From: Tahibacter harae
GTDB lineage: Bacteria; Pseudomonadota; Gammaproteobacteria; Xanthomonadales; Rhodanobacteraceae
Length of the DNA: 64,000 nucleotides
NCBI RefSeq assembly: GCF_024437735.1
Contig: NZ_JANFQO010000001.1
Location: forward strand, 248,001 to 312,000
Reading direction: 5' to 3'
Shown here: positions 25,393 to 36,543 of the stretch, piece by piece
Layout of the letters: every line of letters starts with the position of its first letter
How positions within the stretch are numbered: the stretch's first letter is position 1
Translations under genes and position numbers: made by a program
The notes under the pieces: model-generated
What the model saw: the letters and a program-made list of their open reading frames with translations, nothing else
What the model was told of the DNA's origin: nothing
Databases searched by the model: none

Positions 25393-26097
25393 ATGTTCCG
25401 CATCCTGATCGCCAACAGCAAAGGCGGCTGCGGCAAGACCACCGTCACCAGCACGCTGGCCGGCTACTACGCCCGCAGCGGCCGCCAGACCTGCCTGATC
25501 GACTGTGACCCGCAGGGCTCGTCCCTGGCCTGGTGCCAGCAGCGTCCGGCCCACCGCCCGCCGCTGCGCGCCATGGCCGGCAACGATTCCGGCCACGGCC
25601 TGGGCGCCGGCTGGGTGCTGCGTCTGCCGGCGCAGACCCAGATCCTGCTGATCGACACACCCGCCGGCCTGCGCGCCCACGAATTCGCCCCATTCGCCCG
25701 CCACGCCGATGTGCTGCTGGTGCCGCTGGTGCCCTCGGCCCTGGACCTGCGCGCCAGCCTCGCCTTCCTCGACCACGTGCGCCGCCTGCCCGAAGTGCGC
25801 CGCGGCGAGCTGCGCGTGGGCCTGGTCGCCAACCGCGTGCGCGAGCGCGCCATGTCCACGCGCGAACTCGACGCCACATTGCAGCGCATGACCCAGATCG
25901 CCCTGGCCCGCGTGCGCGACGCGCAGATCTACGTGCGCAACGCCGCCCTGGGCCTGAGCCTGTTCGAGGACGACGGCAGCGCCGCCCGCAGCCACCGCGA
26001 AGACTGGGCGCCCCTGCTCGCCTGGCTGCAGCAGCGCGAAACCGAGCGCAGCAGCAGCGGCAAGGTCGCGTTTCTGCCGGCACGGCAGTCAGGGTGA
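25393..26097 (+). CDS. Orphan ParA-family ATPase
   Basis: A 234-residue P-loop ATPase with the deviant Walker A of the ParA/MinD class, NSKGGCGKTT (Lys10 and Lys15), a Walker A' site (LIDCDPQGSS) and a Walker B strand (ILLIDTPAG). No ParB gene or centromere-like iteron follows, so this is not a standard plasmid or chromosome partition pair. Orphan ParAs of this size often position protein complexes or flagella/chemoreceptor arrays; the cargo cannot be told here. The 3' end is immediately followed by a heptamer array and then a hairpin terminator candidate. Confidence 0.88.
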   Translation: MFRILIANSKGGCGKTTVTSTLAGYYARSGRQTCLIDCDPQGSSLAWCQQRPAHRPPLRAMAGNDSGHGLGAGWVLRLPAQTQILLIDTPAGLRAHEFAPFARHADVLLVPLVPSALDLRASLAFLDHVRRLPEVRRGELRVGLVANRVRERAMSTRELDATLQRMTQIALARVRDAQIYVRNAALGLSLFEDDGSAARSHREDWAPLLAWLQQRETERSSSGKVAFLPARQSG

Positions 26098-32298: not shown

Positions 32299-32669
32299 AC
32301 TCGCAGGAACGCAGCGCGGGCGGGCACCGCGCCCGCGCTTGAAGGCATCGCCGCCGCCCGCGCTCCGGGCGGCGGCGGACGACGGTTACGCCGCAGAAAA
32401 AACCGCACGGGCTGCCACGCTCGCCGCCCCGCATCCGTCTGTTCCGCTTTTGCGCGCCGCTGCAGCGACGCCGCCGCACAGGCCCGGCGGTGGTCGCGTG
32501 CAGCGGCGCTTTTTTCCATCGCCGCGCAACCAGGGCCGCCCGGATTCCACGGCTGGCGACGCAGGCGCCATCGGCAAGCCTGCGCCCGCTCCGGCCAATG
32601 CGCCTGTCATCGTCGCCGCCCTGTCCGTATTAGCTCAGTGGCAAGCCCACTCAACTGACGGAGAAACCC
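32299..32669. other. 371-bp gap with a terminator-like hairpin and the promoter side of the sigma/kinase operon
   Basis: AGCGCGGGCG and CGCCCGCGCT pair as a perfect 10-bp stem with a 7-base loop at 32313-32339, 15 bases past the barrel-protein stop, without a T-tract. The rest is GC-rich and noncoding. An ACGGAGAAA ribosome-binding site precedes the next gene. No promoter hexamers are convincing; an ECF-type promoter recognised by the operon's own sigma factor could lie here. Confidence 0.5.
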
Positions 32670-33665
32670 ATGCGCCATCTGCCCCGCCGCCGGCTGTCCG
32701 CACTGCTGTTCGCCGCCCTGCCCCTGGCCGCCGCGGCCCAGCCGGCGGATACGGCCACGACCGAACTCGCGCGCAGCGCCGCCGCCCAGGCCCAGGCCTA
32801 CCGCCGCCAGCAGAGCGCGCGCCTGGCCGCGGCGACGGACCGCGACAGCCTGATCGCCGCGGTGCTGCTGGCCCTGCCGGCCGATGTGGAGCACGCGCCC
32901 GACGACGCCGCCGCCGCGCCGCTGCAACGCCTGCAGCAGCGCTATCCCGACGACCCGCTGGCGCTGTACACCGCGGCCCTGGTCTGCCATCTGCGGCCGG
33001 ATTGCAGCGACGCCGGTGCCGCAACGCGGCTGCAGGCGCGCGCTCCGGCCAATGCCGTGCACTGGCTGCTGCAGCCGGCCATGGGCAGGCCCACGGCCGC
33101 GCAGCTGCAACAGGCCGCGGCGGCCGGCGGCGCGCAGCCGCATCTGGGCGAATTCGTCGCTATCGTCGGGCGCGTGCTGGACGGCCAGCCCGCACCGCAA
33201 GCGGAACACGATCCCGCCGCCCTCGCCGCGCAGTTGCGCGTGGATGCAATCGACGCGCTGCCGCAGCCGCGCTTCGCGGCCATGTTGCAGGCATGCAAGG
33301 ACGCGGCTGCCGCCAAGGACTGCCGCACGCTGGGCCAGCGCCTGCTGCACGACGCCCAGGGCAGCATCCTGTCGCGCATGATCGGCAGCACGCTGCTGCG
33401 CCGCCTGGCCAAGGGCGGCGCCGAGGAAACCGCCGCCAGGGCGTTCCGCCGCGACTATGTCTGGCTGGGCGGGCACGAGCTGGGCCGCGGCAGCACCGAA
33501 GGCCGCGCGCGCCTGCAGCGCGATCTTGCCGCCTACGGCGAATGGCAGGCGCTGCAGCGCGCCGCGAGCGCGGCCGGCATCGCCGCGAGCGCGCCGGAAG
33601 GCTGGATGCCGGCCGATCCGCAGCAACTGCTGCTGCCGGAAGAACGCCAGCCGGCCAGCCGCTAG
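32670..33665 (+). CDS. Secreted protein paralogous to the sensor domain of the downstream Ser/Thr kinase
   Basis: A 331-residue protein with a signal peptide (LSALLFAALPLAAAAQP). From about residue 55 to the end it aligns with residues 438-731 of the kinase at 34348-36543: DRDSLIAAVLL, a CH-x4-C pair (Cys106, Cys112), APANAVHWLL, a second Cys pair (Cys209, Cys218), ILSRMIGSTLLRRLAKG, YVWLGG and the ending YGEWQALQRAA..AGIA...GW.P.DPQQLLLPEER. Cys pairs and helices suggest a disulfide-stabilised, TPR-like periplasmic fold. It is first in a tight operon, 9 bases before the sigma gene. Likely a free copy of the kinase's sensor module; function otherwise unknown. Confidence 0.82.
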   Translation: MRHLPRRRLSALLFAALPLAAAAQPADTATTELARSAAAQAQAYRRQQSARLAAATDRDSLIAAVLLALPADVEHAPDDAAAAPLQRLQQRYPDDPLALYTAALVCHLRPDCSDAGAATRLQARAPANAVHWLLQPAMGRPTAAQLQQAAAAGGAQPHLGEFVAIVGRVLDGQPAPQAEHDPAALAAQLRVDAIDALPQPRFAAMLQACKDAAAAKDCRTLGQRLLHDAQGSILSRMIGSTLLRRLAKGGAEETAARAFRRDYVWLGGHELGRGSTEGRARLQRDLAAYGEWQALQRAASAAGIAASAPEGWMPADPQQLLLPEERQPASR

Positions 33666-33674
33666 ACTGGCCCC

Positions 33675-34346
33675 ATGGCGGCCTTTCCCACCACGCGCTG
33701 GAGCCTGATCCGCGCCAGCCGGCAGCCGCCGCGCGATGCCGCGGCGGCCTGGTCGGCGCTGGTGCGCGACTACCAGCCGGCCATCGTCGCCTATTTTCGC
33801 CGCAGCCCGCTGGCGCGCGAGGCGGAGGACCTGGCGCAGGAATTCCTGCTCGCGTCCATGCAGGCCGGCTGGTGGTCGCGCGCCGACGACCAGGCCGGCA
33901 GTTTCCGCCGCTTCCTGCTCGCCCTGCTCGGACGCTTCCTCGCCAACCGCCGCGACAACGCTGCGCTGCGGCGCGAGGTGCCGGGCGGCGAGGCCATGGA
34001 AATCGCCACGGAGGATTCACCCGAAGCCGAGTTCGATCTGCAATTCGCCCTCTGCCTCACCCGCCAGGCACTGGCCGCGCTGCGCGAACGCTATGCCGCG
34101 GAAGGCCGCGCGGCGCTGCTCGATCAGCTGCAACCCTGGCTGGTGGAGACGCCGGCCCACGGCGAACTGGCCGCCGTCGCGCAACAGCTGGCGCTGGCGC
34201 CGAATACGCTGGCGGTGCAGCTCAAGCGTCTGCGCGAACGTTTCCGCCAGGCAGTGCGCGACGCGCTGGCCGAACTCTGCCTGGACCGCGCCCAGGCCGC
34301 TGCGGACCTCGCCGCGCTGCGCCAGGCGCTGACGCGGAGCGGCTGA
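33675..34346 (+). CDS. ECF-type RNA polymerase sigma factor of the kinase-associated class
   Basis: A 223-residue protein. It begins FPTTRWSLIRASR, as in sigma factors encoded beside Ser/Thr kinases. Region 2 is LVRDYQPAIVAYFRRS...AEDLAQEFLLASM, and region 4 is ELAAVAQQLALAPNTLAVQLKRLRERFRQAV with a helix-turn-helix. No anti-sigma factor gene is present. In the known ECF43-type systems (EcfP/PknT, EcfK/PknS) a co-encoded kinase phosphorylates the sigma factor to allow polymerase binding; similar control is likely here but inferred. The acidic EAEDL in region 2 differs from the Thr-containing site of EcfP. Start is 9 bases after the secreted-protein stop; end is 1 base before the kinase ATG. 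Confidence 0.88.
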   Translation: MAAFPTTRWSLIRASRQPPRDAAAAWSALVRDYQPAIVAYFRRSPLAREAEDLAQEFLLASMQAGWWSRADDQAGSFRRFLLALLGRFLANRRDNAALRREVPGGEAMEIATEDSPEAEFDLQFALCLTRQALAALRERYAAEGRAALLDQLQPWLVETPAHGELAAVAQQLALAPNTLAVQLKRLRERFRQAVRDALAELCLDRAQAAADLAALRQALTRSG

Positions 34347-34347
34347 G

Positions 34348-36543
34348 ATGCAGGCCGCCGACGCCACCTTGCTGCAACTCGCCCGCGGTGCCCTGCTGGC
34401 CGACGATCCGGCCGATTCGGTACTGGCCGCGCTGGATCTGGACGACCCGCAGCAGCGCCGCTTCGGCGACTACGAACTGCTGCAGCGCCTGGGCCGCGGC
34501 GGCATGGGCGTGGTGTTCCGTGCGCGCCAGCTCAGCCTGCAGCGCGAAGTCGCGCTCAAGGTCATCGCCGGGCTGGGCGAGGACGCAGCCGCTGTCGCGC
34601 GCTTCCTCGGCGAAGCCCGCGCCGCGGCGCAGCTGCATCATCCGCATATCGTGCCGGTGTACGAAGTCGGCCTGATCGGCGATGTGCATTTCTTCTCCAT
34701 GCCGCTGGCCGCGTCCACGCTCGCCACGCAGCTCGACGGCAGGGCGCTGGCGCCCGCCGCCGCACTGGAACTGATGCTGCAACTGGCCGGCGCGGTCGGC
34801 TATGCCCACAGCCTGGGCCTGCTGCACCTGGATCTGAAACCCGACAACGTGCTGCTGGACGAACAGGGCCGCGCGCAGATCGCCGATTTCGGACTGGCGC
34901 TGGCGTTCGATCCGCAGCGCCTGGCGCCGGCGCAGGAAATCTCCGGCACGCCGGCCTACATGGCGCCGGAGCAGCGCGATCCGGCGCTGGGCCCGCTGGG
35001 GCCGGCCAGCGACGTCTACGCCCTGGGCGCGATGCTGCTGCAATTCCTCGGCGGCCGCCTGCCCGATGCCGCCGGGCGCGACGCGCTGCTGGCCGGGCTC
35101 GACGCAGACCTGGGCGCGATCTGCCGCCATTGCCTGAACGAGGATCCGCGCCGGCGCTATGCCAGCGTGGCCGAATTCGCCACCGACCTGGCCCGCGCCC
35201 GCGACGGCAATGCAGTCAGCGTGCGGCCGCGGCGCTGGGCCGAACGCGCCTGGCGCGGCCTGCGCCGGCACCCGGCGCTGAGCCTTGCCGTCGCCGCGGC
35301 CCTGCTCGCGCTGTGCGCCGGCCTGGCCGCGACGGCCTGGCAATGGCAGCGCGCCCAGGCCGCACTGGCCGCGGCCGAGACCGCGCGCCAGCAGAGCAGC
35401 GCCCGCGCTGAACGCTTGCGCCAGCTGGCCGGGCTGATGGCTGCCAGCTTTCCCAGCGGCAGCGCCAGCGAAGCCCAGCGCCGCGCCGGCGCCGAGGCCG
35501 CCGTGGCCTGGCTCCGGCGCGAGACCGCCGATCCCGCCGCCCAGCGCGAACTGCTGGACGCCTTCGGCCAGGCCCTGCGCAGCGCCGGCAAGGACGACGC
35601 GGTGGAAACGCTGCTGGCCGAGATCATCCGCCAGCTCGGCCAGGACTACCGCCGCGCGCAATTGCAGCAGCTGATCGCCCGCGGCGACCGCGACAGCCTG
35701 ATCGCCGCGGTGCTGCTGTCCAGCACCCAGCCGGAGCAGGCCGGGCTCGCCGCACAGGCGCGGACGCAGCTGCGCCAGGGGCATCCCGGCGACGTGGCCG
35801 CCCTGTCCGCACTAGCCCTGGCCTGTCATGTACAAAATAACAATTGCGAAGAAATACAGGATTTCCGCAACCTGACCCGGCTGGCGCCGGACAACGCGGT
35901 GCACTGGGTGCTGTGGCCGCAGGGCCTGGCCGAATCCGAGCGCGCGCTGGCCCGGCGCCTGGCCCAGGCCGCGGCCGCAACTACCTTCGACGACCACGCC
36001 GCAAGCCAGGCCGCCCTGCTGCAGCGCATGCTGCAGAAGCCGCCGCTGCCCGAATCGCTGCGCCAGCCGCTGCAGGCGGTGCTGGATCCGGCCGACATGG
36101 CCGCGTCCCTGCGCCGCACCGCCGTCGACGCCGTGCCGCTGCCGCGCTATGCGGATTTCGTGCGCCTGTGCCGGCCGGACTATGGCGCGCTCGCGCGCCA
36201 GCCGGGGCTGCGCGAACACTGCATCGCCTTTGCCCAGCGCGGGCTGACCGCACCCGGCGCCGCAGTGCTTTCGCGCATGGTGGCCAGCGCCATGCTGCGC
36301 CGCCTGTACAAGGGCCGGCCCGAAGCCGGGCCGGCCTACGCCGCGCGGCGCCAGTACGTCTGGCTGGCCGAGCAATTCACCCGCCGCCGCATCGACCCCG
36401 AGCAACTGCGCCAGGACTTCGCCCGCTACGGCGAGTGGCAGGCCATGGAACGCATGGCGCAGCGCCACGGCATCGCCGCCACGCCGCCAGCGGACTGGCA
36501 GCCGCAGGATCCGAAGATGTTGTTGCTCAGCGAAGATCGCTGA
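34348..36543 (+). CDS. Transmembrane Ser/Thr protein kinase with Cys-paired extracytoplasmic sensor domain
   Basis: A 731-residue protein. Cytoplasmic kinase domain at about 42-290: glycine loop LGRGGMGVVF, Lys71, catalytic loop HLDLKPDN (Asp162), DFG at 180-182, SGTPAYMAPEQ. The catalytic loop is HLD, not HRD, so this is a non-RD kinase and may not need activation-loop phosphorylation. One membrane span at about 310-331. The extracytoplasmic part (about 438-731) is homologous to the secreted protein at 32670-33665, with Cys493/Cys500 and Cys608/Cys625. The codons around 493-510 are conspicuously AT-rich. Last gene of a tight three-gene operon; it likely signals to the sigma factor. Confidence 0.9.
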   Translation: MQAADATLLQLARGALLADDPADSVLAALDLDDPQQRRFGDYELLQRLGRGGMGVVFRARQLSLQREVALKVIAGLGEDAAAVARFLGEARAAAQLHHPHIVPVYEVGLIGDVHFFSMPLAASTLATQLDGRALAPAAALELMLQLAGAVGYAHSLGLLHLDLKPDNVLLDEQGRAQIADFGLALAFDPQRLAPAQEISGTPAYMAPEQRDPALGPLGPASDVYALGAMLLQFLGGRLPDAAGRDALLAGLDADLGAICRHCLNEDPRRRYASVAEFATDLARARDGNAVSVRPRRWAERAWRGLRRHPALSLAVAAALLALCAGLAATAWQWQRAQAALAAAETARQQSSARAERLRQLAGLMAASFPSGSASEAQRRAGAEAAVAWLRRETADPAAQRELLDAFGQALRSAGKDDAVETLLAEIIRQLGQDYRRAQLQQLIARGDRDSLIAAVLLSSTQPEQAGLAAQARTQLRQGHPGDVAALSALALACHVQNNNCEEIQDFRNLTRLAPDNAVHWVLWPQGLAESERALARRLAQAAAATTFDDHAASQAALLQRMLQKPPLPESLRQPLQAVLDPADMAASLRRTAVDAVPLPRYADFVRLCRPDYGALARQPGLREHCIAFAQRGLTAPGAAVLSRMVASAMLRRLYKGRPEAGPAYAARRQYVWLAEQFTRRRIDPEQLRQDFARYGEWQAMERMAQRHGIAATPPADWQPQDPKMLLLSEDR

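Follow-up and report, generated by a model that had tools for sequence, protein, structure and literature searches.

The closest described counterparts of the system reported here are the pairs EcfP/PknT of Vibrio parahaemolyticus and EcfK/PknS of Xanthomonas citri, both of the ECF43 group, in which an extracytoplasmic function (ECF)-type sigma factor is likewise encoded beside a Ser/Thr kinase that spans the membrane and extends into the periplasm (PMC8999054, PMC13147305). EcfP is inactive until a Thr in region 2.2 is phosphorylated (PMC8999054), EcfK requires Thr51 or the linker residue Thr106, and the periplasmic part of PknS contains tetratricopeptide repeats (TPRs; PMC13147305). Here, an operon of Tahibacter harae is described that lies in a stretch of 64,000 bp (contig NZ_JANFQO010000001.1, positions 248,001 to 312,000; hereafter the window) of a genome assembly of 5.99 Mb (G000). 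It encodes a sigma factor with an acidic EAED motif that is absent from ECF43 members, a transmembrane kinase, and in addition a free exported copy of the sensor domain of this kinase; the accessible text makes no mention of such a free copy for EcfP/PknT or EcfK/PknS (PMC8999054, PMC13147305). Among the top matches listed in a search of the open-licence literature in PubMed Central, no description of this operon was present. We tentatively read it as an autoregulated receptor circuit with the soluble receptor twin as feedback sink, giving this reading somewhat less than an even chance.

Two further systems resemble it in part. The sensor domain of the mycobacterial Ser/Thr kinase PknH also contains two disulfides and also occurs in free exported homologues (LpqQ, LprH, LppH, LpqA, and Rv3705c; PMC4118811). 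Its fold is described with a V-shaped cleft, the domain reported here is predicted to be all-helical, and the accessible text mentions neither a sigma factor nor a shared operon (PMC4118811). The ECF41 sigma factors use a promoter of similar type to the motif described below (TGTCACA-n16-CGTC), and a neighbouring gene was the sole target in the cases studied; their control is exerted by a fused C-terminal domain, and no kinase is mentioned in the text available (PMC3426412).

Organization of the operon

The operon consists of three genes in the order free copy, sigma factor, kinase, with the order and the intergenic gaps of 9 and 1 bp that the original prediction, made from the sequence alone, had given. 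Its features are:

32605–32630, +, promoter-like motif TGTCATCGTC-N11-CGTAT, 39 bp upstream of the free-copy ATG
32670–33665, +, free exported copy of the sensor domain, 331 amino acids, with a signal-peptide-like N-terminus and Cys 106/112 and 209/218
33675–34346, +, ECF-type sigma factor of the FPTTRW type, 223 amino acids
33819–33830, +, acidic EAED in sigma region 2.2, residues 49–52
34017–34025, +, Ser115-Pro-Glu in the linker between sigma2 and sigma4, a candidate phosphosite only
34348–36543, +, transmembrane Ser/Thr kinase of the non-RD type (HLDLKPDN), 731 amino acids
34471–35070, +, catalytic domain, best Pkinase stretch (residues 42–241; Pkinase E 1.1e-34)
35269–35343, +, hydrophobic transmembrane-like stretch at about residues 308–332, the single such stretch in the kinase
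35596–36540, +, extracytoplasmic homologue of the free copy (residues 417–731) with Cys pairs 493/500 and 608/625

In a single BLASTP comparison, the free copy and residues 417–731 of the kinase shared 129 of 322 positions (40% identity, 147 bits, E 1e-43). The near-full-length alignment and the common motifs named in the original prediction are thus real, and chance similarity is ruled out, as is the lack of homology that would have undone that prediction; the three genes moreover occur together in seven genomes. Judged by eye, the free copy opens with a signal-peptide-like stretch, as do the free copies of the other operons of this kind. No Pfam or NCBIfam family could be assigned to it, and the kinase ectodomain had no Pfam or NCBIfam match above cut-off.

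The kinase carries the catalytic Lys, Asp, Asn, and DFG of Hanks-type Ser/Thr kinases, and K71, E89, D162, N167, and D180–G182 are invariant in all five kinases aligned from these operons. It has HLD where HRD is usual. When the 41 kinases of the genome were classified by a simple pattern, 31 had HRD and six another form (3 HCD, 1 HLD, 1 HGD, 1 HKD), and four remained unmatched. The rarity of a free sensor copy, as suggested at the outset, was upheld within this set: using the part C-terminal to the kinase domain as query, a homologous non-kinase open reading frame (ORF) was found in the fetched stretch (BLASTP, E ≤ 1e-4) for one of the 41 kinases, that of the window. Likewise, at 13 fetched loci with a kinase beside this type of sigma factor, a nearby free homologue was present at the sole three-gene locus. 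Free sensor copies as a general feature of these kinases are therefore rejected.

Distribution of the three genes and of the sensor domain

The full set of free copy, sigma factor, and sensor-kinase in this order (trio) was found in seven genomes of at least two families. Five of the eight genomes of the genus, the present one included, contain it (G000, G002, G004, G005, G007), and in a sixth (G006) the pieces of the trio break off at contig edges; the other two, G001 (95% complete) and G003 (87%), had neither a sensor nor a sigma match. Outside the genus, trios occur in a metagenome-assembled genome (MAG) of an unplaced family (locus L102) and in G262 (family code f2; L107). In profile searches for the domain, 122 of 398 genomes of the order matched at E ≤ 1e-4, only 12 of which reached ≥100 bits; in a class-wide draw 2 of 369 genomes matched at 1e-20, both from this genus, and in the family of G262 8 of 198 did so at the same threshold. 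These counts are lower bounds, with 4, 5, and 9 candidates scored per genome in the order, the class, and the G262 family, respectively. A two-gene arrangement of sigma factor and sensor-kinase was present at nine loci in eight genomes (G050, G102, G090, G192, G246, G096, G447 with two, and G487), with the kinase gene first in G096. Leaving out kinase loci cut by contig edges (G006, G413, G102-L108), the sigma factor adjoins the sensor-kinase at 16 of 16 loci with a readable neighbour, seven trio and nine two-gene.

More distant members of the domain family are free exported proteins in another context. The loci of the best-scoring weak matches from the order-wide search (L083–L100) contain a ParA-like gene in 18 of 18 stretches of 4 kb and a SixA-like gene in 17 of 18. 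The distant member in the window's own genome (L123:5854-7053) likewise lies no more than about 5 kb from ParA-like and SixA-like genes, and about 10 kb from an ECF43-like sigma factor and a kinase; in six wide regions around ParA-linked copies outside this genome (L117–L121, L126), sigma and kinase profiles found no match. A domain specific to sigma/kinase systems is thus rejected. The original prediction had named as a refutation that the domain occurs apart from such partners: this is the case for the wider family and for one close free copy (L104, below), and it is not the case for the closer subfamily of sensor-kinases with their adjoining sigma factor. The association of free copies with this kind of sigma and kinase genes that was to be looked for by profile search is present in the seven trios and absent from L104 and the ParA/SixA-linked proteins.

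No flanking gene is common to more than two of the seven trio loci, as judged with an imperfect gene caller. Calls of neighbouring genes are unreliable because, at this high GC content, the caller frequently chose antisense frames; the sigma, kinase, and sensor genes were found by BLASTP or profiles over all frames. About 6.6 kb upstream of the operon, the window contains a ParA-like gene (25393–26097) about 40% identical to the ParA beside the distant family; the stretches fetched for the other six trios yielded no such gene. In G039 (L031:8903-9382), a gene judged by eye to be NtrC-like is followed by a short frame with the C-terminal part of the domain only, possibly a remnant, and in G050 (L032) the sensor of the kinase is split over two frames, by sequencing error or in reality.

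Descent of the free copy

A midpoint-rooted tree was calculated from 48 of 54 domain rows, omitting the fragments of G006, G039, G050 (two), G102-L110, and G102-L111; L083–L085 and L088 (the same genes as L117–L120) as well as G413, G447, G462, and G487 were also not included. The seven trio free copies formed one clade (support 100/83), the seven trio kinase-borne copies another (98/87), and the two were sisters, with L104 on the side of the free copies (99/98 and 99/94). Since the five two-gene kinases in the tree fell outside both clades, a single origin of the free copy from a kinase-borne domain is most likely, probably by one old duplication whose products have been co-inherited since. 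Whether the old free family could have given rise directly to the free copies of the trios was tested with a constraint uniting all kinase-borne copies, which was 15.7 log-likelihood units worse (approximately unbiased (AU) test, p 0.038); this is a modest rejection of a grouping that was chosen after the tree had been seen.

Identities among free and among kinase-borne copies are correlated across genome pairs (r 0.84, 21 pairs), as would be expected from shared descent alone too. The identity of free to kinase-borne copies is 0.386 within and 0.372 between genomes, so there is little sign of gene conversion. A free copy that is a relic of the duplication, without a role in the pathway and kept by linkage, would fit the apparently single duplication and the mean identity of free copies (0.437), slightly below that of kinase-borne ones (0.463). 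We consider this very improbable, however, given that the ORF is intact in all seven trios, spread over at least two families, and keeps four cysteines and an N-terminus resembling an export signal, and that the free copy is the promoter-proximal gene in each of them.

A conserved promoter-like motif

Within the 250 bp upstream of the free copy, TGTCATCG-type and CGTAT-type words at equal spacing were detected by script in four of the seven trios. The remaining three have variants at equal spacing, recognized by eye, so that the motif precedes the free copy in all seven; this conserved promoter-like motif of the trio is newly described here. The two trios outside the genus carry variants, and the genome scans cover the eight genus genomes. 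Without mismatch, TGTCATCGTYN11CGYAT had five sites in these genomes, one in each of the five trio genomes and 34–48 bp upstream of the free-copy ATG, whereas the three other genomes had no exact site; G006 has a one-mismatch site before its fragment of the free copy. With a longer pattern and up to three mismatches, 33 sites were found in the five trio genomes, five being the operons' own and 28 lying beyond, versus 24 in the control, and 11 sites versus 16 in the control in G001 and G003. No wider regulon was found by these motif scans.

In two-gene relatives, the motif, where seen, stands before the kinase instead of before a free copy. A weight matrix gave one strong match in the gap between sigma factor and kinase (G090, 26.5 bits) and weak ones in G246 (14.7), G487 (12.2), and G102 (11.8). 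Because 14 background matches of ≥11 bits, reaching up to 15.3, occurred in 404 kb on both strands, the weak matches count by their place and not by their score.

The sigma factor

Profile matches of the sigma factor remained below threshold (Sigma70_r2, E 0.0093; sigma70-ECF, E 1.3e-6 and 28.2 bits against a cut-off of 42.9). It adjoins a Ser/Thr kinase, as sigma-70 family proteins do in kinase-linked ECF groups such as ECF59, 61, 62, 217, and 283. ECF43 sigma factors lack the DAED motif and have a phosphorylatable Thr instead, which is not true of the window protein. Profile PF07638 (Sigma70_ECF), taken as a stand-in for ECF43, did not match it at E ≤ 0.01 and matched 33 other places in the genome. 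All 13 sigma factors of the window type have E or D at the third position of the region 2.2 motif; in 19 ECF43-like sigma factors of this genome, aligned out of 23 strong PF07638 places, it is T (18) or S (1). As the window sigma factor keeps the acidic motif, the region 2.2 phospho-switch of EcfP and EcfK does not carry over and is rejected for it. A linker [S/T]PE is present in 8 of 13 sigma factors of this type (those of the seven trios and G050), and its use as a phosphosite is a guess.

The genome has a large expansion of sigma-kinase pairs: Ser/Thr kinases were located at 41 places and strong PF07638 sigma matches at 23, at least 19 of the latter in the stretches fetched around kinases. 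Tandem genes for FPTTRW-type sigma factors stand beside one kinase at L185, L186, L188, and L189 (also L113 and L165), where the kinase-proximal one scores lower.

Fold and cysteines of the shared domain

Structure prediction, which had been proposed for both copies, gave confident, all-helical AlphaFold2 models (11 sequences each) with predicted local distance difference test (pLDDT) values of 89.9 for the free copy and 89.4 for the ectodomain; the latter has about 85 extra helical residues beside the membrane. Foldseek found nothing in the PDB at E ≤ 0.001. The best match (E 0.027) was the TPR region of BcsC, and the weak matches are helical repeats, several of them TPRs. No Pfam TPR profile matched the window free copy or kinase at E ≤ 1; in one relative, TPR_17 gave a match short of its cut-off (E 0.03), and Pfam returned no match to this domain for any of the ten wider-family proteins scanned. 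The best weak match to a solved chain, far from confident, was the Pseudomonas TPR protein LbcA (PA4667; profile E 0.0028 to 8sxe and 0.0032 to 7rqf), which was also among the weak Foldseek matches. LbcA is described as a lipoprotein binding partner of the protease CtpA and not as a kinase sensor.

Each of the 20 full-length copies examined from trios, two-gene loci, and L104 retains all four cysteines, as do 19 of 20 ParA-linked free proteins; the exception, L126, is without the first pair. In copies without a ParA neighbour (L116, L122, L124, L125), some cysteines are lost in most rows; L124 and L125 have two domain copies per protein, with the cysteines partly lost. This pattern points to the pairs as structural staples. 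Disulfide state had been put forward as a candidate signal, which is not favoured because distant free relatives already have both pairs.

A possible receptor circuit and its alternatives

In the proposed circuit, the TPR-like periplasmic domain of the kinase would receive an envelope signal, and the kinase would then activate the neighbouring sigma factor by phosphorylation at a site other than the region 2.2 Thr of EcfP and EcfK. The sigma factor would transcribe its own operon from the motif at 32605–32630, with an exported, soluble version of the receptor domain as the promoter-proximal product. This twin would bind the same ligand or the receptor domain of the kinase and thereby lower stimulation of the kinase, its effect being one of damping. 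Together, the composition of the operon, its one exact promoter site, and the absence of common flanking genes suggest a closed circuit. The periplasmic part of PknS may restrain its kinase (PMC13147305), and the ECF41 sigma factors studied had a neighbouring gene as sole target (PMC3426412); we count both in favour of this reading.

Several observations weigh against this circuit. A scan of the eight genus genomes with one mismatch allowed gave 18 other sites versus four with the reversed pattern as control. Called genes contain 11 of these 18; for three of the remaining seven, a called start is no more than 40 bp away (two in G001, a genome without the sigma factor, and one in G007). At five of the nine two-gene loci, no motif match of ≥11 bits lies between sigma factor and kinase. 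Only two alignment columns separate free from kinase-borne copies, so a surface specific to the free copy is not apparent. No free copy was present in the stretches fetched around the nine two-gene loci (8 genomes), with a free copy elsewhere possible, as the stretches from G102 and G246 consist of short contigs and those of G447 lie near contig ends; further matches were a 308-amino-acid frame at a contig edge (L109) and the weak L111 in G102, and the weak L116 in G096. Finally, the close free copy L104 (314 bits) lies in a genome without a match to this sigma factor (MAG RIFCSPHIGHO2_12_FULL_63_22, completeness unstated), which has only two further sensor matches, both weak. L104 also lacks the motif, and the free protein may therefore work alone.

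This apparently orphan copy is the best argument for a different reading, in which the free protein is the working output, binding, sequestering, or otherwise handling an envelope substrate, and the kinase domain merely gauges the demand for it, with any lowering of kinase activity a by-product. Such a matched pair of receptor and effector has a parallel in BlaR1, whose sensor resembles class D beta-lactamases. The position of the sole exact motif site before the free copy in five of five trio genomes fits this reading as well, as does the make-up of the distant family from free exported proteins. In the tree, however, the trio free copy branches within the kinase-borne lineage, apart from the old free family, at the modest support and with the post hoc grouping noted above, and an effector role would thus have been regained. 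We regard this alternative as rather unlikely.

The free copy could also be an obligate partner that forms a heteromer with the receptor domain of the kinase, or presents the ligand to it, and is needed for activation. Tight linkage and the parallel descent of free and kinase-borne copies agree with this idea, and helical-repeat domains commonly bind proteins, with the fold matches here being weak. The nine two-gene loci have the same kind of sensor and sigma factor and no free copy in the stretches fetched, which speaks against it, and we judge an obligate partner improbable.

In its fullest form, the feedback-sink reading would make the operon a kinase-sigma pair with its own operon as sole target, in which a secreted receptor twin titrates the signal and the response is set homeostatically; this is possible but doubtful. 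Soluble decoy receptors in animals follow the same logic. We know of few sigma-kinase pairs whose signal has been established. Many such pairs in bacteria are predicted from gene order alone (PMC8999054). A three-gene circuit with one detectable promoter would be a small, testable system in which the motif could serve as reporter, and the soluble receptor domain would provide material for ligand fishing and crystallization. The sigma factor of the window must be controlled otherwise than by the known phospho-switch in region 2.2.

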